NCBI RefSeq assembly: GCF_001578185.1
Contig: NZ_CP011008.1
Span: forward strand, 3,562,001-3,626,000
Direction: 5' to 3'
DNA from: Peribacillus simplex
GTDB lineage: Bacteria > Bacillota > Bacilli > Bacillales > DSM-1321
DNA: 64,000 bases
A program made the translations under genes and the position numbers. The notes under the pieces are model-generated. The model made no database searches, was not told the origin of the DNA, and saw nothing but the letters and a program-made list of their open reading frames with translations. Shown piece after piece: positions 22,928 through 37,684 of the stretch. Position 1 is the first letter of the stretch; each line of letters starts with the position of its first letter.

Positions 22928-24115
22928 TTAGTCTCCTTGAATGATTGGCTGTCCAATCGCTATATCTTCAATAACTTGGTAATGTATAGATAATTTAACT
23001 TTACCATTCTCTATGCTTTCGTGCAAAATTTTTTCTTCGACGATTTCATCTTCCTCGTCTAAATGCTTTTCCAATTCTGCTTTAGCCATTTTCCTGCCTT
23101 CCTTCACCGCTTCTTCCTCTGTATAACTCCGAACAATGTCTTCCTTGCTCCTTAAGGTCACCTGTTTATAAGAAATGGGCAGTTCCCATTGAAGAAAGTG
23201 AAACGGCCTCACTGTCGTTTCTTTTACCTGTTTTTCATATCCCGGATCCTTGAATCCCCAAATAGGCAGTGAAAATTCCCCCATTTTCAAAAAGTGCCTA
23301 CTCGTTTCATTTCCGTTAAAAACAGCAAACTTGGTTTTTAACGGAACATCCACTTTCGCTTTATACCACGTTTTCCCTTTTATTACTCCCTTTGCGGATA
23401 CAATTTCCTGTTTATCCTCTTTTCCAATCAGTCCAGAAACAAGCAGCTGTCCTTTTCCTACATAATCATTCACATTAACTATAGATTGTCCCTTTTCAAC
23501 GAACATATTAGTGATGATCGCTTTTTTGGAAGCTACCAAATTCTGTGGAGATGTTTTCTCTACTTCTTTAGGCTGCCGTTTTTCAACAACCCTGAAATGG
23601 TATGTCGTTCCCTTTAGCTCTACCCCCACCCATGTCAATGCACCAATCCGGTCCGACAGCTTACGCTGAATCGTATCCACATCATCAACAAAGAATTGCA
23701 CTTTACCGATCTTCACGCCCATCTTGTCCAATTCTTTCCGGATGGCATGCTCGGTTGCCGGCTTGGCATCTTGTACCTCGATGCCCCATACCATATTGGA
23801 AAGTACAAATATGCAAAGCAGGAAAGCGATCAGGCCCACTAAAAATCCGCTGTTTTTCATAACCCTCTTCATTAGGAAAGGGACACCCTTTCCCTGCATG
23901 AATTTTACTTTACAATCGCTCTTACGCATGACCTGACGGAGTTTAGGGATATCCCTAACATCCATATGAAAAATCAGGGCTTCGCTGCCGACGCGCTTCA
24001 CATCCCAGATATGCAGCCCTCTTCTCGTCAGCATGTTAATCAGCCGTTCTGCGCCTTTTCCATATGCCTTCACTTTTACATAGCCTGTATAATAGTTTGT
24101 CCATTGGTTTTTCAT
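22928..24115 (-). CDS. yqfD: Sporulation protein YqfD
   Basis: Membrane protein of the YqfD family, transcribed in the mother cell under sigma-E in B. subtilis; detailed function not established. In 395 residues there is a soluble N-terminal part (about 1-85), a single hydrophobic helix (LVGLIAFLLCIFVLSN, about 93-108) and a long extracytoplasmic domain with repeated beta-rich segments and a charged end. The close link to yqfC (15 bases) is conserved. Confidence 0.92.
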   Translation of the reverse strand: MKNQWTNYYTGYVKVKAYGKGAERLINMLTRRGLHIWDVKRVGSEALIFHMDVRDIPKLRQVMRKSDCKVKFMQGKGVPFLMKRVMKNSGFLVGLIAFLLCIFVLSNMVWGIEVQDAKPATEHAIRKELDKMGVKIGKVQFFVDDVDTIQRKLSDRIGALTWVGVELKGTTYHFRVVEKRQPKEVEKTSPQNLVASKKAIITNMFVEKGQSIVNVNDYVGKGQLLVSGLIGKEDKQEIVSAKGVIKGKTWYKAKVDVPLKTKFAVFNGNETSRHFLKMGEFSLPIWGFKDPGYEKQVKETTVRPFHFLQWELPISYKQVTLRSKEDIVRSYTEEEAVKEGRKMAKAELEKHLDEEDEIVEEKILHESIENGKVKLSIHYQVIEDIAIGQPIIQGD

Positions 24116-24130
24116 GGAGACCTCCCGGGA

Positions 24131-24415
24131 TCATTCATTGATAAAATAAACCTTGTCAATTTTGCCTTCGAGCATGATTTCTTCCGGCAAAATCGTCTTT
24201 ATGACAAAGGCGTTTCCCTTTATCAGCAACTGCCCATTTTTCAGCATCAATCGCACTTCGCTGTCTGTAAAAGCCAATAAGCCACGATGGTTTTCAATAT
24301 AAATATGTAATTGTCCGATCATTGTAATTCGCGGCAGGTCCATCATGACATCTTGCGGAAGGTCCATTGTTTTGGTCATAAGCTGTTTCACTTTTTTTCC
24401 CCAATTGCGTGCCAT
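24131..24415 (-). CDS. yqfC: Sporulation protein YqfC
   Basis: Small (94 residues) YabP/YqfC-family sporulation protein; the family is sigma-E dependent and found only in spore formers. The core LPRITMIGQLHIYIENHRGLLAFTD and LMLKNGQLLIKGNAFVI are typical. The ATG is preceded directly by a T6 run at the foot of a strong hairpin, and the GGGGG ribosome binding site lies in the hairpin's 3' arm. Confidence 0.92.
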   Translation of the reverse strand: MARNWGKKVKQLMTKTMDLPQDVMMDLPRITMIGQLHIYIENHRGLLAFTDSEVRLMLKNGQLLIKGNAFVIKTILPEEIMLEGKIDKVYFINE

Positions 24416-24463
24416 AAAAAAGAACCCCCTTTCATCTCAATGTATGAAATGAAAGAGGGTTCT
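24416..24463 (-). terminator. Terminator-like hairpin ending at the yqfC start codon
   Basis: On the minus strand AGAACCCTCTTTCAT pairs with ATGAAAGGGGGTTCT (a few mismatches) and runs into TTTTTT, then straight into ATG of yqfC. It can terminate the yqeZ-floA-yqfB transcript, but also sequesters the yqfC ribosome binding site in any RNA that reads through. Confidence 0.8.
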
Positions 24464-24544
24464 AGCACAAAATTATAAGGGAATGAAAGCCTATTTTTTC
24501 GTGGCATCAAGGATGTAATGAAAAAAGCCCGGTGTTGCACTCTG

Positions 24545-25048
24545 TTACCTTCTGGACCTCTGAAGACTTCGCTTCGCCCTTGGCGGTCCCAGCACTTCTG
24601 ACATGATAATGCCATCAATCAGCTGCTTTTTGCCAAAAGAAGGTCCTTTGCGATAGACCGGACTGCTGTTATCAGATATCGCTGATGTAATTTGATCTGC
24701 CTTCGCTTTTTGATATAAACGCTCTTGATCGTACTTCTGCTGAAGCCGTCTAAGCTCAGCAATCCTTTTGTTCGCTTCATTCTTCGTCTCATCGTTTACT
24801 TCAACAGCCTGCGTTGCCTGCTGTTCGACTTTCCTTACGGGAGCAGGGGCAGGCCTTTGCTGCTGATCCCCTTGTGACATTTCACCTTGAAGCTCCCGCA
24901 TGACCTCCTGCCAGTTCTTTTTCGGAGGCCTGTTTGGATCATCATTTTGCTGAGGCTGCTTTTTCTTTCCTAACATGGACGTTAAAATACCGATCAAGAC
25001 AATGATAAGGAATGGGTTCTTGAGAAAGAAATCAATAATATCTCCCAT
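24545..25048 (-). CDS. yqfB: YqfB-like small membrane-anchored protein
   Basis: 167-residue protein in the position of B. subtilis yqfB, directly after floA. One N-terminal membrane helix (FLIIVLIGILTSML, about 13-26) is followed by a Gln/Pro/Lys-rich soluble region with coiled-coil potential (NEANKRIAELRRLQQKYDQE, about 90-109). No catalytic motif. The gap to floA is 22 bases, so it may act with the flotillin. Symbol by position and general similarity only. Confidence 0.65.
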   Translation of the reverse strand: MGDIIDFFLKNPFLIIVLIGILTSMLGKKKQPQQNDDPNRPPKKNWQEVMRELQGEMSQGDQQQRPAPAPVRKVEQQATQAVEVNDETKNEANKRIAELRRLQQKYDQERLYQKAKADQITSAISDNSSPVYRKGPSFGKKQLIDGIIMSEVLGPPRAKRSLQRSRR

Positions 25049-25070
25049 TTAAAGACCTCCCTTCCCTGAC

Positions 25071-26078
25071 CTAATTATTATTATTGTTGTTATTGCCATC
25101 TTTTGGATTTTCGGATATTTTACTGATGGAATCGCGCATATCCGTATCTGCCGTGATGTTTTGGATATTCATATAATCCATCACTCCCAGATTGCCGCTT
25201 TTCAGTGCATCGGCCATCGCCAACGGAACTTCCGCTTCTGATTGAACAACCTTCGCTCTCATTTCCTGAACACGGGCAACCATTTCCTGTTCAAGTGCAA
25301 CAGCCATTGCACGGCGTTCTTCGGCTTTTGCCTGGGCTATTTTCTTATCGGCCTCAGCTTGGTCAGTCTGTAATATGGCCCCAATATTTTTCCCGATATC
25401 CACTTCAGCGATATCAATGGAAAGAATTTCGAATGCCGTTCCAGAATCCAACCCTTTTGATAAAACCGTTCTTGAAATCAAATCGGGGTTTTCAAGTACA
25501 TCCGTATGCATTTTCGAAGCACCGATCGTCGATACGATCCCTTCACCTACACGGGCAATGATTGTCTCTTCGCCGGCACCACCGACTAGACGTTCAATAT
25601 TGGCACGGACCGTAATCCTCGCCTTTGCTTTCACTTCAATACCATTCATCGCTACACCAGAGATGAATGGAGTTTCGATCACTTTCGGGTTAACGCTCAT
25701 TTGAACGGCTTGCAGTACATCCCGACCTGCAAGGTCAATAGCTGCACCCCGTTCGAAAGGTAGCACGATATTGGCACGTTCTGCAGCAATTAAAGCATTC
25801 ACTACGCGATCGACATTACCGCCTGCAAGGTAATGGCTCTCCAATTGATTCGTTGAAACATTGATTCCAGCCTTATGGGCCTTGATAAGCGGATTGACAA
25901 CCCTGCTTGGTATAACACGGCGAAGCCTCATCCCTACTAATGTAAATATACTGATTTTGACTCCTGCCGCTAAAGCGGAAATCCATAACATTACTGGTAC
26001 GAATGTGAAAAACACTGCCAATACGATTATGGCAGCAATCACTGCCAGTACAATAAATATCGTTCCTGAAGTTATCAC
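25071..26078 (-). CDS. floA: Flotillin-like protein FloA
   Basis: Scaffold protein of bacterial functional membrane microdomains. An N-terminal hydrophobic hairpin (about 5-45) anchors it; the SPFH-like domain follows (about 50-230), then an Ala/Glu-rich coiled coil with [18 protein letters not shown]. 335 residues, ending in an Asn run. It follows yqeZ by 34 bases; in B. subtilis this operon is sigma-W controlled and helps in membrane stress. Confidence 0.95.
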
Positions 26079-26112
26079 TTAATGATTCATCCTTCCTGTT
26101 TCTTAAAATTTT

Positions 26113-27438
26113 TTAATTTGAATCCGGAATTTCCCGGACGACCACCCTAGATCCTTCAACTTTAACGATCATGATTGACGAACCTTTGGAAATAAAGCTT
26201 CCTTCAGTCACGACATCCACTCTTTCATCTTTGATTAAAGCTGTTCCTGAAGGCCTCAAATCTGTAAGGGCCTTCCCTTCCACACCTAATAAATCCACTC
26301 GATTCGGATTGCTGACATATCCTTGTTCCGTTTTTGTTGCATCGGTTAATATCATTTTCCTGAAAAATTTCATTTGTTTTCCAAACACCTTTACAAGTAG
26401 GATGAATACCAAAATGGATACGGTGACCGCAATTAGCAAGGATATCGTCATATGAACCGGATCACCTGATGCGAGGAATAAACTCCCCACAATCGCCGTA
26501 AATCCAAGCAGACCGATAATCCCCCCTGGGATAAAAAACTCAACTAGTACAAGAATGACCCCGATGATGAACATCGCTAACGATTCGTACCCGGTGATAC
26601 CAGCGACAAGATGACCATAGAAGAATAAGACAAGACTGGAGATCCCAATTACCCCCGGAATTCCAAAACCAGGTGAAAACAATTCAATCACAATCCCGAT
26701 TCCTGCTATCGTCAATAAAATGGGGACGACAATCGGATTGGTCAAAAAGCGGGCAAGTTTCTCTGGAAAGCTTTCTTCGATTGACCGAATATCGGCATCC
26801 TCAACCCCAAGTATACTATACAATTCCGCTTTCCCAGAGACGGTGCCTTCACTATAACCAGCTTTTTTTGCCTGTTCAGCTGTAAATGTCAGCAACTTTC
26901 CTCTTTCCGCCCCATATTCGGGAAGGTCGATGTCATCATCCGCCATCGCCTGAGCGAATATGGGATCGCGACCATTTTGTTCTGCAGCAGTCTTCATGGC
27001 AGCCAGCCAATAAGATTGGGCTTTCTTACCTGCAGCGTTCCCCGATGAATCAATCACTGCCGCTGATCCCATAGTGGCACTTGGAACCATATAGATCTCA
27101 TCTGCACTTAGGGAAATATATGCACCTGCAGATAAAGCCCTGTTATTCACGTAAGCAACAGTCTTAATTGGTGAATCGGACAGTAACTTCGCAATTTCCC
27201 CTGCTGCATCCACAGCGCCTCCAGGGGTGTTCACCTCGAATACCACAAGATCTGCATCAGCAGCTTCAGCAGTGGTCAGCGCACGCTCCAAAAAGGCCGA
27301 GAGTCCCTTTTCCACCGTTTCTTCAATTGGAACATGGTAAACGATCTTCTCTTTTGCAGAAACCACCGATCCTCCAAATGAAGACATGGCGAACAGCAAT
27401 CCAAATAAGAGTACAGATAAATAACGCCAAATTTTCAG
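26113..27438 (-). CDS. yqeZ: NfeD-family membrane protease-like protein YqeZ
   Basis: NfeD1b-type protein: signal peptide, a ClpP-class serine protease-like domain (about 40-225, with EVNTPGGAVDA and the serine-containing RALSAGAYISL), four to five membrane helices, and a C-terminal OB-fold domain. It works with FloA. The first ATG in frame would cut the signal peptide in half. The frame extends upstream to CTG ending at 27438, preceded by AGGGGGGG, giving KIWRYLSVLLFGLLFA, a normal signal sequence with cleavage near VVSA-KE. I therefore use the CTG start (441 residues). Confidence 0.9.
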   Translation of the reverse strand: MKIWRYLSVLLFGLLFAMSSFGGSVVSAKEKIVYHVPIEETVEKGLSAFLERALTTAEAADADLVVFEVNTPGGAVDAAGEIAKLLSDSPIKTVAYVNNRALSAGAYISLSADEIYMVPSATMGSAAVIDSSGNAAGKKAQSYWLAAMKTAAEQNGRDPIFAQAMADDDIDLPEYGAERGKLLTFTAEQAKKAGYSEGTVSGKAELYSILGVEDADIRSIEESFPEKLARFLTNPIVVPILLTIAGIGIVIELFSPGFGIPGVIGISSLVLFFYGHLVAGITGYESLAMFIIGVILVLVEFFIPGGIIGLLGFTAIVGSLFLASGDPVHMTISLLIAVTVSILVFILLVKVFGKQMKFFRKMILTDATKTEQGYVSNPNRVDLLGVEGKALTDLRPSGTALIKDERVDVVTEGSFISKGSSIMIVKVEGSRVVVREIPDSN

Positions 27439-27579
27439 GCAGAACGCCCCCCCTTTACCGTCTTAAACGCTGTAAGTGCCTCCAACTTTCAGGAAGATAC
27501 TTACCAGTAAAATTCAGCCCGCAACTAAAATTCGAATAAGGAGCAAATGAAGCAACCCTATACTCTGTTCTTTAGTTAT

Positions 27580-27605
27580 TACGTATGTATATGAAAAAGG
27601 TTTCA
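27580..27605 (-). promoter_or_regulatory. Sigma-W-type promoter of yqeZ-floA-yqfB
   Basis: Minus strand TGAAAC (27600-27605), a 16-base spacer and CGTA (27580-27583), exact matches to the known sigma-W consensus. It lies about 140 bases before yqeZ, whose B. subtilis counterpart is a sigma-W target (envelope stress). Confidence 0.8.
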
Positions 27606-27686
27606 AAAAAAGCAAATAAAATTGAAAGTGCCCATATTATCTTTGGCTTTGTTTCAAGAATATACGCACAAAAACCAGGAAATACA

Positions 27687-27716
27687 CAAAAACCACAGGC
27701 AATTTGCCTGCGGTTA
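27687..27716. terminator. Terminator of rpsU-yqeY
   Basis: Minus strand ACCGCAGGCAA pairs with TTGCCTGTGGT and is followed by TTTTTG, 25 bases after the yqeY stop. Confidence 0.85.
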
Positions 27717-27740
27717 GGTTTCGAGTTTTAAGTTTCGAGT

Positions 27741-28184
27741 TTAAGATAGATGTAGTTGTACTAATTTGTTTACTAGAGAACCATCCGCTTTACCTTTAAC
27801 TTTAGGCATTAAAGCTCCCATAACTCTCCCCATATCTGCTTTGGATGTTGCATTGACTTCTTCAATCGTTTGTTTAACAATTTTAGAAATCTCTTCTTCT
27901 GAAAGTTGCTCAGGCATATATGCCTCTACGTATACTAGTTCGGTGCGGACTTTATCCACGAGATCGGAACGACCTGCGTTTTCAAACTCCTGGAGGGAGT
28001 CTTTGCGTTGTTTTAATTCGCGAGAGAGCACTGTCAATTCTTCATCATCTGTTAAATCTTGTCTCTGCTTCAGTGCTTCGTTTTGAATAGAAGCTTTCAG
28101 CATCCGAATAACAGATAGTTTGTCCTTTTCCTTGTTCTTCATCGCTTGTTTCATATCATTATTTAAACGCTCGAGAAGACTCAT
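27741..28184 (-). CDS. yqeY: GatB/YqeY domain-containing protein
   Basis: 147-residue protein of the YqeY family, related to the C-terminal tRNA-binding domain of the GatB amidotransferase subunit; precise role not known. The N-terminus [31 protein letters not shown] and the C-terminal [21 protein letters not shown] are signatures. It lies 14 bases after rpsU, the conserved arrangement. Confidence 0.94.
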
Positions 28185-28198
28185 CTTTCCACCCTCTC

Positions 28199-28372
28199 TT
28201 AGAATTTACGTTTTCTTGCAGCTTCAGACTTTTTCTTACGTTTTACGCTTGGTTTTTCATAAAATTCACGCTTCCTAGCTTCCTGAAGCGATCCTGCTTT
28301 AGATACAGTACGTTTGAAACGACGAAGAGCATCTTCAAGCGATTCGTTTTTACGAACGACGGTTTTAGACAT
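28199..28372 (-). CDS. rpsU: 30S ribosomal protein S21
   Basis: 57-residue, very basic ribosomal protein of the 30S platform ([20 protein letters not shown] to the end ARKRKF). I start at the ATG ending at 28372, preceded by GGAGGGAAAGAG; the longer frame is not conserved. First gene of the rpsU-yqeY unit. Confidence 0.97.
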
Positions 28373-28439
28373 CTCTTTCCCTCCCTCCGAAAACAACACA
28401 CTAACTCAAGTTGTCAACATGTTATACATGTACTAAACA

Positions 28440-28468
28440 ATTATAATATATCATCTTTAGCAGGTCAA
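28440..28468 (-). promoter_or_regulatory. Sigma-A promoter of rpsU-yqeY
   Basis: Minus strand TTGACC (28463-28468), 17-base spacer, TATAAT (28440-28445), about 68 bases before rpsU. Confidence 0.85.
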
Positions 28469-28607
28469 CCAATAAAATCAAACTTATTTTGAATATTATC
28501 ATGTTATTATCATAATTTTTCTTTAAACCATCATTCAACGGCATGGAAACCCAATTTATAGCATGTCTCCCCTTAACGGACCATAAGTTATTAAAGGGGT
28601 GACAGTC

Positions 28608-29537
28608 ATGTATGAACTATTTTTATTCCTACTATTCATTGCGATATTTTTGGCTGGTATGTCAGTTTTACGAATCGGGTTGTTCAATATGTCCGGTGCA
28701 GCATTAAAAACATTTCTCTCAAAAGTAACGGATAAACCATGGAAGGGTTTCATGGCCGGAACCATCTTTACGGGGATCTTGCAAAGCAGCTCGGCGGTCA
28801 TGGTCATGACTGTCGGCCTCGTTTCTGCAGGAAGCTTAACGTTCCCGCAAACAATCGGGATTATTCTTGGAACGAATATCGGATCCACCTTCACGGCAGA
28901 GTTCATGACCATCTCTTTGGATGGTTGGATCATCCCAGGTGTCATCAGCGGCGCTTTCCTTTGCTTCATGCCAAATGTATTATCGCGAAGCTTAGGTATG
29001 ACATTGATCGGAATCTCGGCCATCTTTGCGGCTATGAGTGGTTTTAAAACGCTTTCGACACCAATTGCAGCCTATCCATCCATACAAACGCTCATCAATT
29101 ACATAGAGGGCCATATGAGTTATGCCCTATTAGCAGGGATATTATTGACGGCACTCATTCACTCTAGTTCCGCTACCATCGGGATAGCCATGAGCTTTTT
29201 GATGAATGGGGAGTTATCCGTCGCTTCCGCAATCATCATCATGTTTGGATCCAATATAGGCACTTGCATCACCGGATACATGGCCAGCATCGGGTCTGGT
29301 AGACAAGCTGCCTTCACAGCTTATGCACATATTTGGCTAAACGTCATCGGGGTTGCTGCATTCCTGCCTTTTGTGGACATCCTGGAACGAACGGCTGCCT
29401 TTTTCACCGAAAACGAGGGGAAACAACTCGCCCATGCTAGTGTCATTTTCAATATCTTGACTTCTTTGGCTGTCTTGCCTTTCGCACGCCAATTCTCCAG
29501 CTTCATTCTTTGGGTGCACCGTCCCCCTAAAAAATAA
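28608..29537 (+). CDS. yqeW: Na/Pi cotransporter family protein YqeW
   Basis: Membrane protein of the Na+/phosphate symporter (PNaS, NptA-like) family. In 309 residues there are about eight hydrophobic helices, with the duplicated family motifs TGILQSSSAVMVM (about 56-68) and ALIHSSSATIGIA (about 184-196), the QSSS/HSSS transport signatures, each followed by a GTNIGS/GSNIGT motif. It lacks the C-terminal PhoU-like domain of longer relatives. Start ATG at 28608 has AAAGGGGTG upstream. It is the only plus-strand gene in this part. Confidence 0.9.
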   Translation: MYELFLFLLFIAIFLAGMSVLRIGLFNMSGAALKTFLSKVTDKPWKGFMAGTIFTGILQSSSAVMVMTVGLVSAGSLTFPQTIGIILGTNIGSTFTAEFMTISLDGWIIPGVISGAFLCFMPNVLSRSLGMTLIGISAIFAAMSGFKTLSTPIAAYPSIQTLINYIEGHMSYALLAGILLTALIHSSSATIGIAMSFLMNGELSVASAIIIMFGSNIGTCITGYMASIGSGRQAAFTAYAHIWLNVIGVAAFLPFVDILERTAAFFTENEGKQLAHASVIFNILTSLAVLPFARQFSSFILWVHRPPKK

Positions 29538-29574
29538 AGGCCTGACCTAAAAGTCAATGGCTTTGGGGACAATT

Positions 29575-30150
29575 TCGGAGGTTTGCTCGTGGGTTTTGGT
29601 GCTTTACTCGTGAAATTTGCGCTTTTACTCGTGAGTTTTGCACGTTTACTCGTGAATTCCGGTGCTTTACTCGTGAGTTTTGCGCTTTTACTCGTGAATT
29701 TCAATTTCCTCCTCAAAATTGCGCGCTTTAGCTTAATTTTGGGGCGTTTTCTTTTGCATTTTCATGACATTCACTCAATTTCGGTGCTTTACTCGTGAAT
29801 TTTGCAAGTTTACTCGTGAATTCCGGTGCTTTACTCGTGAGTTTTGCACTTTTACTCGTGAATTTCAATTTCCTCCTCAAAATTGCGCGCTTTGGCTTAA
29901 TTTTGGGGCGTTTTCTTTTGCATTTTCATGACATTTACTCAATTTCGGTGCTTTACTCGTGAGTTTTGCACGTTTACTCGTGAATTCCGGTGCTTTACTC
30001 GTGAATTTTGCACTTTTACTCGTGAATTTCAATTTCCTCCTCAAAATTGCGCGCTTTAGCTTAATTTTGGGGCGTTTTCTTTTGCATTTTCATGACATTC
30101 ACTCAATTTCGGTGCTTCACTCGTGAATTCGCCGTTCTAACTCGTGAAAC
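29575..30150. repeat. Hierarchical tandem repeat built on TTTACTCGTGA
   Basis: A 21-base unit with core TTTACTCGTGA occurs 13 times exactly by my count, plus degenerate copies at both ends. Groups of four or five units alternate with an 80-90 base segment (starting CAATTTCCTCCTC, including GGGGCGTTTTC), making a larger period of 164 bases (GGTGCTT starts at 29783, 29947, 30111) and one of 185 for the first, which has an extra unit. Both strands are open by chance in places (Lys/Ser/Thr-rich on minus, Leu/Val-rich on plus) without ribosome binding sites. Not a CRISPR array: gaps are about 10 bases and themselves repeated. Confidence 0.92.
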
Positions 30151-30306
30151 TCGCGCTTGTGCGGTTTTCTTTAAAAGTTGCTGGTTCCAAAAATAACTAG
30201 TGAGAATTCAAAATTGATACATCTTTCATTTTTTGCCGTGGAGAGCTTTTTCTTGGACAGGAATGAAGCAAGCGCGATCAGACGTGGTGGGAAAAAGGGG
30301 AATAAA

Positions 30307-30341
30307 AAAAAGGCGGAGAAAAATTATTCTCCGCCTTTGAA
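30307..30341 (-). terminator. Terminator after deoC
   Basis: AAAGGCGGAGAA and TTCTCCGCCTTT form a 12-bp stem with loop AAATTA; the eight A at the plus-strand left end give the minus-strand T tail. Confidence 0.92.
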
Positions 30342-30346
30342 AAAAA

Positions 30347-31018
30347 TCAATAATCGGATTCAGCCGTTAAGCCCTTTACGATGGAGACACCTGCACTCGC
30401 ACCAATTCTTGTTGCACCAGCTTCAATCACTTTCTGGGCATCACTCGTGTTGCGGACACCACCTGAAGCTTTGACACCGATATCGGGACCGACCGTTTTT
30501 CTCATGAGCGTGATATCTTCAACAGTCGCACCGCCGGTCGAAAAACCTGTTGATGTTTTAACATAATCCGTTCCCGCTTTTACTGCCAGTTCACAAGCAC
30601 GGACTTTTTCTTCCTCAGTCAATAGAGAGGTTTCAATGATTACTTTCGATAGAGCCTTACCAGTGGATGCAGCTATCACAGCACGGATATCCCGCTCTAC
30701 CAACTCATCATCCTTGTCCTTCAATGCGCCGATATTGATCACCATATCGACTTCGTGAGCACCATTGCTGATGGCATCTTTCGTTTCAAAAGCTTTAGTT
30801 TCCGGTGTGGTTGCACCTAGAGGGAACCCGATAACCGTACAAACTTTCACTTCTGAACCTTCCAAAAGTTCGCTTGCATACTTAACCCATGTCGGGTTTA
30901 CGCATACGGAAGCAAAGTTATACTCTCTCGCTTCTTCGCATAATACCTTAATTTGCTCTTTGGTTGCATCTGCTTTTAATAACGTGTGGTCAATTAAACC
31001 TGCTACATTTTGTGACAT
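30347..31018 (-). CDS. deoC: Deoxyribose-phosphate aldolase
   Basis: Cleaves 2-deoxyribose 5-phosphate to glyceraldehyde 3-phosphate and acetaldehyde in deoxynucleoside catabolism. The Schiff-base lysine is in [14 protein letters not shown] (about 150), and the TIM-barrel start [12 protein letters not shown] is typical. 223 residues. In B. subtilis this gene belongs to a nucleoside operon elsewhere; here it stands alone after mtaB with its own terminator and a TG-extended -10 (TATGAT) about 50 bases upstream. Confidence 0.95.
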
Positions 31019-31145
31019 TAATAATCCTCCTCAAAACAATCTATTACTAGTTGTACGTACCTCTAATCATACCATAATTTATCCACTTTGACGATATATA
31101 TAGTCTTTACCCGAACGTTCCAAGAAAACACATCAAACAGAGAAT

Positions 31146-31177
31146 AAAAAAAAAGACAGCGTTAAATCGCCGTCTTA
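31146..31177 (-). terminator. Terminator overlapping the mtaB stop codon
   Basis: Minus strand AAGACGGCG pairs with CGCTGTCTT and ends in T9. The 5' arm begins within the last bases of mtaB (TAAGACGG). Confidence 0.85.
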
Positions 31178-32512
31178 AATATTTGATGCTTGTTGCAATG
31201 GTAAATCCTTTACAATCGTCACGAACTGTCCTTCACTAAATGGATAGCCAGACTTCGTAATTTTCACTTTTACGATTTCACCGACCATTTCATCTGAAGC
31301 CGGGAAAACGATTTTCATATAATTATCGGAGTAGCCTTCATAAAGGCCATTTTCCAACTTCGTTTCAGGAATGACTTCCAGAACTTCACCCTCGAATCGG
31401 GAGGCATACTCTTTTGCCAGCTGATCCGACAAAGCGATAAGCCGGTGGACACGTTCATTTTTGACATCTTCATCCACTTGACCCTCCATACGGGCAGCCG
31501 GAGTCCCTGTCCGTTTTGAATAAGGGAAAACATGAAGTTCGGAGAATTTATATTTTTCTATAAAGTTATATGTCTCCATGAATTCTTCTTCGGTTTCACC
31601 TGGGAAACCTACGATGACATCAGAGGTAACAGCAAGACCCGGAAGTGCAATTTTCAACTTTTCGATTCGATCACCGAAGAAATCCATCGTATATTTACGT
31701 CTCATCCGTTTTAGTACTGTATCGGAACCCGATTGGATTGGTATATGCAAATGACGTACGACTTTTTTCGAATTCGTCAGCACTTCAATGATCTCATCTG
31801 TAATTTGGCTGGCTTCAATGGATGAAATACGGATACGCTTCAGCCCATCGATTTTTTCCAAGTCCCGCAGCAGCATCGCCAAATTATAGTCCTTCAAATC
31901 GTCTCCGTAGCCGCCAGTATGGATTCCGGTCAGGACTAACTCCTTATAGCCTGCCTCGACAAGCTGCTCAGCTTGGTGAACGACTTCCTTCGGATCGCGG
32001 GAACGCATCAAGCCACGAGCCCAAGGTATGATGCAGAAAGTGCAGAAATTATTGCAGCCTTCCTGAATCTTTAGCGAAGCGCGTGTACGGTCTGTAAAAG
32101 CTGGTACATCCAACTCTTCATAGACACGGTTTTTCATGATATTTCCTACAGCATTGATTGGTTCACGTTCCACCTTGAATTGCTCGATATAATCAAGAAG
32201 TTTAACCCTGTCCTGTGTTCCTACAACAATATCCACACCTGGTATGGCCATGATTTCAGCTGGCGATGTCTGAGCGTAACATCCCGTTACCGCTATGACG
32301 GCATTCGGATTTTTACGAATGGCACGACGGATGACCTGACGGCTTTTCTTATCGCCAGTGTTTGTCACCGTGCATGTGTTGATGACATATACATCTGATG
32401 TATTTTCAAACTCAACACGATCATATCCCCCAGTTTTAAATAATTGCCAAATAGCCTCTGTTTCATAATGATTCACTTTACAGCCTAATGTATGGAAAGC
32501 GACCGTTGCCAT
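31175..32512 (-). CDS. mtaB: tRNA-t6A37 methylthiotransferase MtaB
   Basis: Radical-SAM enzyme converting t6A to ms2t6A at position 37 of tRNAs reading ANN codons. Parts: N-terminal UPF0004 domain with three cluster cysteines (FHTLGCKVN, INTCTV, TGCYAQ), radical-SAM core with CNNFCTFC (about 152-159), and a C-terminal TRAM RNA-binding domain. 445 residues. It follows rsmE by 6 bases. Confidence 0.96.
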   Translation of the reverse strand: MATVAFHTLGCKVNHYETEAIWQLFKTGGYDRVEFENTSDVYVINTCTVTNTGDKKSRQVIRRAIRKNPNAVIAVTGCYAQTSPAEIMAIPGVDIVVGTQDRVKLLDYIEQFKVEREPINAVGNIMKNRVYEELDVPAFTDRTRASLKIQEGCNNFCTFCIIPWARGLMRSRDPKEVVHQAEQLVEAGYKELVLTGIHTGGYGDDLKDYNLAMLLRDLEKIDGLKRIRISSIEASQITDEIIEVLTNSKKVVRHLHIPIQSGSDTVLKRMRRKYTMDFFGDRIEKLKIALPGLAVTSDVIVGFPGETEEEFMETYNFIEKYKFSELHVFPYSKRTGTPAARMEGQVDEDVKNERVHRLIALSDQLAKEYASRFEGEVLEVIPETKLENGLYEGYSDNYMKIVFPASDEMVGEIVKVKITKSGYPFSEGQFVTIVKDLPLQQASNI

Positions 32513-32518
32513 TTTTCA

Positions 32519-33271
32519 TCACCTCAAAAGTTCTACATGATAAGAAACAGCGGAAAGTGCATATAAAGGTGCTGTTTCAGTTCTTAATATTCTTGGTCCA
32601 AGACCGCAAGCTACAAAACCGGCATCAGACAGTTTTTCAATTTCCTTATCTGCTAAACCACCTTCAGGACCAAAGACAAATAATATCGATTGCCCTCCGG
32701 TGATATCCTTCAGGACCGAAGCGAGTACAGAAGTTTCCCCCCGCTTTGCCTCTTCTTCAAAAGCGATTAATTTATGATCGAAACCAGTTGCATACCCAGC
32801 TAGCTGATCTGCCGTCATCGGCTCCTTGATGGCAGGGATAACCGTGCGGTGAGATTGCTCGGCCGCCTCTTTTGAAATCTTCTGGAGCCTCTCCAATTTC
32901 TTGCCTACCTTTTTGTGGTCCCATTTTACCACCGAACGAGCAGCAATAAAAGGGATAAACTCAACCGCACCCAGTTCCGTACCCTTTTGTACGATATATT
33001 CCAATTTATCCCCTTTAGGCAGACCGCTCGCTATCACAACCCTCACAGGAAGTTCCTTTTCTTCATTCTTCCATTCGATAACAGTCCCTATAACAACATC
33101 ATCAGTTATTTCGGAAATTTCCGTGACAGCAGTCATACCATTAGCTTTCACCGTGATTATCCGCTCTCCCGGTCCCATTCTCATCACCCTGGAGATATGG
33201 TGAAAATCATCACCTGATATCGTCACCGTGTTTCCATTGATGTCTTCTTCGTTAAGAAAATACCGTTGCAC
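32519..33271 (-). CDS. rsmE: 16S rRNA (uracil(1498)-N3)-methyltransferase RsmE
   Basis: SPOUT-class methyltransferase of 16S rRNA U1498. N-terminal PUA-like domain (to about 70) and the trefoil-knot SAM site seen in FVFGPEGGLADKEIE and LGPRILRTETAPLYAL. I start at GTG ending 33271 (QRYFLNEEDI), with AGGTGG just upstream, which matches the N-terminus of homologs (QRYF); upstream codons look non-conserved. 250 residues. Separated from prmA by a terminator-like hairpin, paired with mtaB downstream. Confidence 0.94.
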   Translation of the reverse strand: MQRYFLNEEDINGNTVTISGDDFHHISRVMRMGPGERIITVKANGMTAVTEISEITDDVVIGTVIEWKNEEKELPVRVVIASGLPKGDKLEYIVQKGTELGAVEFIPFIAARSVVKWDHKKVGKKLERLQKISKEAAEQSHRTVIPAIKEPMTADQLAGYATGFDHKLIAFEEEAKRGETSVLASVLKDITGGQSILFVFGPEGGLADKEIEKLSDAGFVACGLGPRILRTETAPLYALSAVSYHVELLR

Positions 33272-33357
33272 ACTGCCACCTACTTCATCTAGTCTAAAAT
33301 ACATACAGCGGCTAACAGTCAGGTTTCCCGAATGCAAGCCATGCAAGGATTCAAGCT

Positions 33358-33408
33358 AAAAAAAGGTACTCTGACTATCAAAATACCCGATAATCAGAGT
33401 AACTTTTT
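33358..33408. terminator. Bidirectional hairpin between prmA and rsmE
   Basis: Minus strand GTTACTCTGATTATC faces GATAGTCAGAGTACC with a 9-base loop, then T7. Coming right after prmA it should end most dnaK-dnaJ-prmA transcripts before rsmE. Confidence 0.85.
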
Positions 33409-33411
33409 CAA

Positions 33412-34353
33412 TTAATCATTTCTTTTCGCTATTATTGCTACCCAATCTTCCATCAAGATCGTTTCCTCAATGGTGAATCCGGATCCTATAATCGCATCCT
33501 TCACATCTTGTTTCTTTGGTTGAATGATTCCAGAAGCGATGAAATATCCGCCAGGTTTAACCACTTTCGCTACATCATCCGTAAATCGCATGATCACTTC
33601 GGCAAGAATATTAGCCACGACGACATCCGCTTGTTCATTCACACCATCCAGCAGGTTGCCTTGTGAAACGGACACTTTATTCTGAACGTTATTAAGTTCC
33701 ACATTTTGAATAGCTGACTGTACAGCCACTTCATCCAAATCAAGGGACTGGATTCGTTCTGCATCCAATAACGCAGCAGCAATGCTTAGAACCCCAGAAC
33801 CCGTTCCTACATCAACAACTAAATCCCCTGGACGAACTGTACGTTCCAGCGCTTGGATGCACATGACCGTTGTCGGATGTGTCCCTGTTCCGAAGGCCAT
33901 GCCGGGATCAAGTTCAATGATCAATTCGTCACTGCTGACAGGAGTATAATCTTCCCATGTCGGTACGATGGTAAACCGTTCGGAAATCTTGACGGGATTA
34001 TAATATTTTTTCCAAGCCGTCGCCCATTCTTCTTCATTCACTTCACTAATTGAAACAATATTCTTCCCAAGGTCTATATCAAATTGAAGGAGATTATTAA
34101 TTGATTCCTTTATAGCATCAACAGTTTCACCAAGGAAGCTGTTAACTGGCAAATAAGCCTTAATCAATACACCTTCATCCGGATAATCATCTGGGTTTAA
34201 GTGGTAGATTTCGCCAAAAACATTTTCGCGTTCCTTGACTAATTCTAGAGGATCCTCAATGACAACACCGCTGGCACCTGCCTCATGAAGAATATTCGAA
34301 ACAGGTTCAACCGCTTCATTCGTTGTTTGGATTGCAAATTCAGACCACTTCAT
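33412..34353 (-). CDS. prmA: Ribosomal protein L11 methyltransferase
   Basis: SAM-dependent methyltransferase of ribosomal protein L11. N-terminal substrate domain (about 1-100), then the Rossmann fold with [14 protein letters not shown] (about 179-192) and VVANILAEV (catalytic-loop region). 313 residues. The HrcA-group order dnaJ-prmA-rsmE is common in bacilli. Confidence 0.95.
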
Positions 34354-34389
34354 AATCTACCAACTCCCAATTTGTTCTTTTACTTTAAT

Positions 34390-35505
34390 TCACCTATCTT
34401 TAAAAGCACGCTTCACTTTTGAGAAAAAACCATCATGATGTTCATCAATACCTTGACCGCTGATATCGCTGAACTCACGAAGCAGGTCTTTTTGTTTTTC
34501 CGTTAATTTTTTAGGTGTGACCACTAATACGACCACATGTTGATCTCCTTGCCCATATCCTCTGACATTAGGAACACCTTTGCCCTTTAAACGGAAGCGC
34601 GTGCTCGTTTGTGTACCGGCAGGGATCTTCAGCTTCACTTTTCCATGAAGGGTCGGAACTTCTATTTCATCCCCTAGTGCGGCCTGAGCAAAAGTAACAG
34701 GCATTTCACAATAGATATCATCGCCATCCCGCTCAAAGAATTCATGACTGCGCACATGGAAGACTACATACAGATCTCCGGCTGGTCCGCCATTGATTCC
34801 TGGCTCGCCTTGTCCGGTTACACGCAATTGCTGGCCATCATCAATTCCTGCTGGCACCTTAACTTGGATCTTTTTACGTTTTTGGACTTTTCCGTCCCCG
34901 CCGCATGTTGAACATTTATTAGGAATGATTTTTCCTGTTCCTTGACAATGATGACATGCTCTCCGGTTCACAATCCTTCCGAACGCTGTGTTTTGTTCTA
35001 CATTCAATTGACCGGTCCCATGACAATGTGAACAGTTTTCCACTTTTGTACCTGGTTTTGCACCTGATCCTTTGCATGTATCACAATTCTCTTCACGCGG
35101 AATTTCAATTTCAGTCTCTTTTCCAAATGCAGCCTCTTCAAAAGAAAGCGTCATCGTATACTGTAAATCCGCCCCTTGACGTGGTGCATTCGGATCTCTC
35201 CTGCGTCCGCCGCCCCCAAAGAAACTGCTGAAAATATCTTCAAAACCGCCGAAACCACCAAAGTCCTGACCGCCAAAGCCCTGATTTGGATCTGTATGTC
35301 CGAATTGGTCATAATGGGCCTTTTTCTGTTCGTCGCTCAATACTTCGTAAGCTTCCTTGATTTCTTTAAATTTATCCGCAGCATCGTCCGCTTTATTAAT
35401 ATCAGGGTGATATTGTTTGGAGAGCTTACGATACGCTTTTTTGATTTCATCCTTCGAAGCACTCTTCGAAAGGCCTAACACCTCATAATAATCGCGTTTA
35501 CTCAT
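34390..35505 (-). CDS. dnaJ: Chaperone protein DnaJ
   Basis: Co-chaperone that stimulates DnaK ATPase. J domain with HPD in YHPDINK (about 33-39), Gly/Phe-rich region (about 75-110), four zinc repeats ([32 protein letters not shown]) and C-terminal substrate-binding domains. Start [11 protein letters not shown] at 35505 gives 371 residues; the frame extends upstream but not as a conserved protein. A terminator and a separate promoter lie between dnaK and dnaJ. Confidence 0.97.
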
Positions 35506-35545
35506 ATCTAAAATCCACTCCCGATTCGATTCACATAAAGGTAAT

Positions 35546-35573
35546 ATTATCACTGAACGAAGATAATAATCAA
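35546..35573 (-). promoter_or_regulatory. Candidate promoter of dnaJ
   Basis: Minus strand TTGATT (35568-35573), 16-base spacer, GATAAT (35546-35551), about 40 bases before dnaJ. It would let dnaJ-prmA be transcribed apart from dnaK. Confidence 0.5.
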
Positions 35574-35733
35574 CTAGAAAAGTACAAACGGCTCTAACAC
35601 TTTTTTGTAAATTGTAATGCCAGTCCCAATTTGCACACATTTCTCTCTAAATTTCCATGATTCCCCACCAGCGATTGTAAGAACAAAAGAAAATCAGATG
35701 CCAACACTTCCTGGCAATGATTCCATCCACTGT

Positions 35734-35773
35734 AAAAAAAGCCAAAGTCAAGATAACCTGACTTTGACTTTTC
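35734..35773 (-). terminator. Terminator between dnaK and dnaJ
   Basis: Minus strand AAGTCAAAGTCA pairs with TGACTTTGGCTT (one T-G pair), loop of about 8 bases, then T7. In the 330-base gap between the two genes I see only this and the dnaJ promoter. Confidence 0.85.
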
Positions 35774-35833
35774 TACAATGGCAGGCAGAAATCAACTGCC
35801 CAATATATATCAGTTTCCCGATTGGGTCACTTT

Positions 35834-37684
<1,851 letters not shown>

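Follow-up and report, generated by a model that had tools for sequence, protein, structure and literature searches.

Between a membrane transporter gene and deoC in the chromosome of Peribacillus simplex, a short word is repeated at two levels, which raises the question of whether the word is read by some cellular factor or has accumulated through DNA copying. A preliminary description of this locus had noticed the order of the repeat and suggested a protein-binding array or a mobile repeat. The window, by which we mean the whole analysed stretch of 64 kb, covers positions 3,562,001-3,626,000 of a contig of 5,345,500 bp, and the repeat lies near its middle.

The array beside deoC and its counterparts on the chromosome

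The array extends from 29582 to 30147, within slightly narrower limits than the 29575-30150 first assigned to it, and consists of 16 units on the plus strand, taken here as the TTTACTCGTGA orientation. Thirteen units carry the exact core TTTACTCGTGA (29603 to 30025), and three carry diverged cores starting at 29582 (TTTGCTCGTGG), 30116 (TTCACTCGTGA) and 30137 (CTAACTCGTGA). The two-level organization proposed earlier is real: exact cores follow one another at 21-bp steps in three blocks, with five, four and four copies, and a segment of about 90 bp comes after each block; block plus segment recur with the period of 164 bp already given, the "first 185" being 164 + 21. With at most one mismatch, the core was found 16 times in the window, 14 times inside the array, compared with 0.99 expected (shuffle mean), and none of 100 dinucleotide shuffles of the window reached 16. 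The three segment copies are 98-100% alike, and no copy beyond these three was found with 88 bp of the segment as query. The features of the locus are as follows.

28599-29537, plus strand: membrane transporter gene (yqeW of the preliminary description), convergent with deoC; relatives located
29582-29697, plus strand: first block, one diverged and five exact cores at 21-bp steps (core matches)
29698-29787, plus strand: segment copy 1, about 90 bp, the source of the 88-bp query
29788-29861, plus strand: second block, four exact cores (core matches)
29862-29951, plus strand: segment copy 2 (segment search)
29952-30025, plus strand: third block, four exact cores (core matches)
30026-30115, plus strand: segment copy 3 (segment search)
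30116-30147, plus strand: two diverged units at the deoC-facing end (core matches)
30309-30338, minus strand: terminator-like hairpin of deoC, between deoC and the array (our own simple finder)
30347-31018, minus strand: deoC, with its 3' end toward the 3' side of the array (gene call; relatives located)

The gene at 30347-31018 is presumed to be deoC, a name that follows the preliminary description. Elsewhere in the window, at 1718-2100, a 122-bp unit is repeated 3.1 times with 98% matches and contains the inverted words AAAAAGCGCAAGCGCC and GGCGCTTTTT; this is another type of repeat than the 21-bp arrays.

A search of the whole genome for the exact core gave 203 forward and 88 reverse matches, compared with 0 and 2 for the reversed pattern used as a control. 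Every forward core and 84 reverse ones lay in the window and 54 fetched stretches, 1.06 Mb altogether, and 283 of these 287 fall into 27 arrays, each in one orientation and with a main step of 21 bp. The random scatter without phase that would have spoken against an ordered system is thus not what the genome contains, since of the 291 exact cores all but eight belong to phased arrays, four being single and four unlocated. Some of the other arrays have only two or three units. Steps of 18-20 bp, and of 36-101 bp between some neighbours, also occur, which argues against strict helical phasing. The exact core is missing from 2.283 to 3.592 Mb, a stretch of 1.3 Mb or a quarter of the chromosome, inside which a dif-like site lies at 2,561,971. 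Among the matches listed, the named carriers of arrays include P. simplex, P. frigoritolerans, P. muralis and P. butanolivorans.

Alignment of 310 units from 24 arrays of this genome, with arrays equally weighted, gave the consensus TTTACTCGTGARTTYNNNNNN, in which each unit is composed of one 15-bp motif (TTTACTCGTGARTTY) and six nearly free bases. A and G are about equally frequent at position 12, position 15 is occupied by T or C, and positions 3, 6 and 9 hardly vary. The two alternating flank forms pointed out in the preliminary description are present in the window array and in some other arrays, as a local trait; strict alternation is no rule of the genome. One array (chromosome positions 724073-724674) is made of alternating TTTACTCGCGA-type and AATACTCGTGA units, with steps of 19 and 21 bp, and is a mixed array within a genome characterised by the core ending in TGA. 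At another locus (L146, 7611-8582), a gene for 323 amino acids lies between two arrays, and its counterpart is flanked by arrays in several relatives; its product may be a NERD-domain protein.

The repeat class as such is known, since constant-size tandem repeats of 20-21 and 52 nt in Bacillus have been described in the main text of Subirana and Messeguer (2021; PMC8161180), where the SIMPLEX group is reported as rich in 21-nt repeats and the class is called enigmatic. Their B. simplex genome of 5.52 Mb, with 27 such repeats and a GC content of 39.8%, may be the one analysed here, for which the GC content of the fetched DNA is 41.0%. The same text reports conserved short signals, e.g., TCGCGG for B. 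weihaiensis, and proposes either a protein that polymerises on DNA or small RNAs. The present arrays resemble these repeats in unit length, non-coding character, number per genome and a short species-wide signal. Indeed, under the detection rule of at least four repeats with at least 60% of one length (PMC8161180), the window array has 16 units, with 12 of 15 steps at 21 bp. Moreover, the 27 arrays combine the 21-bp main step with differing spacers and the shared motif TTTACTCGTGARTTY, and of the 20 arrays that reach 150 bp, nine, that of the window among them, lack an open frame on both strands. The main text of PMC8161180 gives no B. simplex core, does not use the word orientation, and describes no comparison of orthologous sites and no core switch; relative to it the core dialects and the fixed polarity described below would be new. 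A literature search for the core word returned nothing on the subject.

Fixed places and polarity of the arrays

Arrays of this genome were compared with named loci in relatives for which both flanks could be matched, in 64 comparisons that took in 23 of the 27 arrays. An array was present in 63 of them, a number biased by the fetching of loci for their arrays. These 63 comparisons comprise 69 arrays, and not one departs from the common orientation, a result that the choice of loci does not bias. Flank homology among fetched loci gave 269 array pairs that agree in orientation versus 2, counted from hit rows, that disagree. Unit number varies widely between orthologous arrays.

The gene context was analysed with genes called by our own codon-usage script. 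From at least 120 fetched loci, 158 arrays were grouped into 44 sites, of which three outside the Bacillales (L018, L047 and L049, from Bacteroidaceae, Prevotellaceae and Nostoc) were dropped from the gene-end counts and the core and spacer identities but are still contained in the flank-homology and hairpin counts. At 35 of the remaining 41 sites the 3' side of the array faces the 3' end of a gene (p 2.4e-6, with sites treated as independent), as the window array faces deoC; the rule is broken at six. Tandem gene contexts favour it by 21 to 3, and on the 5' side of the arrays the gene direction is unbiased (24 to 16). The arrays are also skewed with respect to replication: 21 of 27 have the lagging orientation (p 0.003), nearly all of which also fit the gene rule, and in convergent contexts the replication rule fits nine and breaks three. 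For this count the terminus was set at 2.67 Mb, and the dif-like site at 2.562 Mb changes no assignment. As causes of the polarity, replication and transcription are here inseparable. A common regulon was considered and rejected, as 29 of 30 scanned flanking proteins have a Pfam family and their functions are unrelated.

The fixed polarity is one reason to ask whether the arrays act as RNA. Transcripts that run on from the facing gene, or separate transcripts of the arrays, would then supply a repeat RNA, to be recognised by an RNA-binding protein or to base-pair with its targets. A role of the RNA type has been suggested for such repeats by Subirana and Messeguer (PMC8161180), and transcription of 52-nt repeats has been reported for B. 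coagulans (PMC8161180, PMC8625621). The freedom at positions 12 and 15 would, in our interpretation, fit pairing that tolerates G-U, and the folding z, averaged over 26 arrays, is -2.3 for the TTTACTCG strand compared with -1.7 for the opposite strand. Folding is, however, very uneven, ranging from z -6.4 to +1.1 over both strands, and RNA structure was rejected as the main feature because it is both weak and uneven. No Rfam family reached its gathering score in window positions 24000-36000. Furthermore, in 14 of the 32 sites where this could be tested, among them that of the window, our own finder places a terminator-like hairpin between the gene and the array, compared with 22 of 37 control gene ends. 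Taken together, an RNA role seems unlikely.

A constrained core with two dialects

Pairs of units drawn at random from 137 arrays, which represent 40 sites, show how differently the two parts of the unit are constrained. The mean identity of the core is 0.951 within arrays, 0.954 for orthologous arrays and 0.944 across sites, and that of the spacer falls from 0.552 within arrays to 0.448 between orthologous arrays and 0.315, near random, between sites. Since copying of whole units would equalise the spacers and drift would erode the cores equally, these values suggest that something acting at every site holds the core.

The core itself differs between relatives. The genus is represented by 36 genomes, counting the present one; at least 48 exact TGA cores occur in 16 of them and at most 13 in the rest, and 25 genomes outside the genus have 0-4. 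Two genomes, G013 and G017, have only 6 and 4 of these, and carry 226 and 313 copies of TTTACTCGCSA instead, a word present 11 times in the present genome beside its 291 TTTACTCGTGA. The second word was counted 39 times in G010 and 42 times in G034, occurs together with the TGA core in G025 (57 and 48, respectively) and in G012 (37 beside 560), and was found 0-11 times in the other genomes of the genus. In G013, units with CCA mostly have A at position 12 and units with CGA mostly G, with exceptions. The switch at shared sites was read from 15 fetched stretches of G013, in which five arrays of our genome, the window's included, have a counterpart with the other core at the orthologous place, pointing in the same direction.

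Beside deoC, G017 has CGCGA units and a segment about 75% alike to that of the window, from which we conclude that the two arrays share an ancestral array. Arrays are present at this site also in G013 and in G007 (Peribacillus sp. Bi96), and are missing in G001, G004, G006, G010, G016 and G020. A given array is dispensable, since the deoC site is empty in some relatives that carry hundreds of cores. In a tree of deoC, a single gene of 669 bp from 22 genus members and one outgroup, G010, G013 and G017 form one clade (support 100/100) inside the array-bearing clade (100/99), with 85/83 for the branch that nests them; G020, with only 13 cores, falls within the array-bearing clade. The subclade of G010, G013 and G017 uses TTTACTCGCSA in place of the TGA core.

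Outside the genus, a sister genus provided one genome with a single ACTCGCC array. A sample of 249 genomes of the order contained three, all of one genus in another family, with ACTCRGNAC at 21-bp steps (27, 44 and 17 matches; controls 0); as the pattern was derived from two of them, only the third (G131) is an independent case. Four fetched loci from three species of this genus (L279, L282, L284 and L293) contain GAACTCRGNAC in 21-bp arrays. The 3'-end rule is not clear there, with five of nine arrays in accordance. These arrays may represent a parallel code.

The same data bear on the possibility that the arrays are neutral or selfish satellites grown by slippage, in which a bias of copying, and not a use, keeps the core. 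The wide variation in unit number would suit such an origin, as would the empty orthologous sites and the close similarity of the segment copies in the window to one another, as against those of Bi96, which differ from them (about 75% of aligned bases alike), a sign of local homogenisation. Copying of units would, however, carry the spacers along with the cores, and between sites the spacers are close to random. Furthermore, the core is a tract of 11 bp, which is short for homologous recombination, and the dialect changed at shared sites while the arrays stayed in place. We therefore regard a satellite origin as rather improbable.

The mobile repeat that the preliminary description offered as one of two readings fares worse, since the arrays occupy orthologous sites in fixed orientation across species. 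The arrays were found neither in viral contigs, searched with two exact patterns, nor in plasmids, searched with one 181-bp query, and a phage or plasmid origin was dismissed. REP sequences, which are dispersed by RAYT transposases, are oriented and intergenic, and the arrays resemble them in dispersal, orientation and place. The partner transposase is missing, however, as the present genome has no match to PF01797 (Y1 transposase), and the arrays are long, phased and fixed in site. Among genus genomes, PF01797 was found in 1 of the 20 with at least 39 cores (G006) compared with 14 of the 16 that are poor in cores. Dispersal of the REP/RAYT type is accordingly very improbable. Over the 36 genomes the distribution of PF01797 is nearly a mirror image of that of the arrays, a pattern for which kinship may be the cause.

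Two further explanations receive virtually no credit. That the unit codes for a heptapeptide repeat might be supposed from its length, a multiple of three, from the variation at positions 12 and 15, which resembles that of synonymous third bases, and from FTREFxx-type open frames in some arrays, but the step length is no multiple of three in 58 of 391 cases, the third bases at positions 3, 6 and 9 are nearly invariant and many of the longer arrays lack a frame, as described above. An assembly artefact, to which near-identical 164-bp copies are prone through miscounting, is hardly conceivable given similar arrays in many independent assemblies, including those at the deoC site of Bi96, G013 and G017.

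A putative factor that reads the core

The reading we prefer, to which we give an even chance of being correct, is that in each array the units serve as successive recognition sites of a putative sequence-specific factor acting in trans, most likely a DNA-binding protein. One word constrained at unlinked sites, together with a change of this word throughout a lineage at shared sites, points to such a co-evolving factor. The protein-binding half of the preliminary interpretation thus gains indirect support from the sequence comparisons, through the 15-bp motif common to arrays with unrelated spacers and through the core that differs genome-wide in one subclade.

The putative protein would sit on the 15-bp motif, once per 21 bp or two helical turns, so that all copies would be presented on the same side of the double helix. 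The arrays, about 27 in number, hold fixed intergenic places, mostly facing gene 3' ends and with fixed polarity, and their unit number would change by slippage or unequal exchange. Spacers would drift and be homogenised locally, with selection through the shared factor keeping the core; in one lineage the specificity of the factor might have changed and the cores followed. The resulting nucleoprotein stretch would probably either delimit transcription units in a polar manner or organise the nucleoid.

Known systems offer partial parallels to this putative binding array. Noc-binding sites of Bacillus subtilis have been described as single 16-bp sites scattered on the chromosome and bound by one DNA-binding protein; the cores resemble them in being scattered round the chromosome and in leaving free the 1.3 Mb around the dif-like site, and differ in forming tandem arrays with polarity. 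The nearest conceptual parallel to the core dialects is that of the DNA uptake sequence in Neisseriaceae, for which PMC3630211 describes a short word kept within a species, switched between relatives and read by a receptor. The word is likewise kept within the species and switched between related species here, whereas Neisseriaceae have thousands of dispersed copies and nearly all of the 291 cores of P. simplex stand in tandem arrays, not as dispersed single copies. Mostly unique, longer spacers of fixed length, as in CRISPR, are not what the arrays contain, their spacers being about 10 bp (six free bases) and reused within arrays.

More tentatively, and as a possibility somewhat short of even, we propose that the arrays constitute a lineage-specific polar address code, in which a putative factor of the P. 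simplex group coats arrays at gene 3' ends and a change of its specificity in one subclade switched the cores genome-wide. With a defined core, a polarity and two dialects at shared sites, the question of binding becomes testable, and units of the other dialect can serve as the control. If such a factor were found, it would give a large group of soil bacteria a new kind of system for setting boundaries or organising the chromosome.
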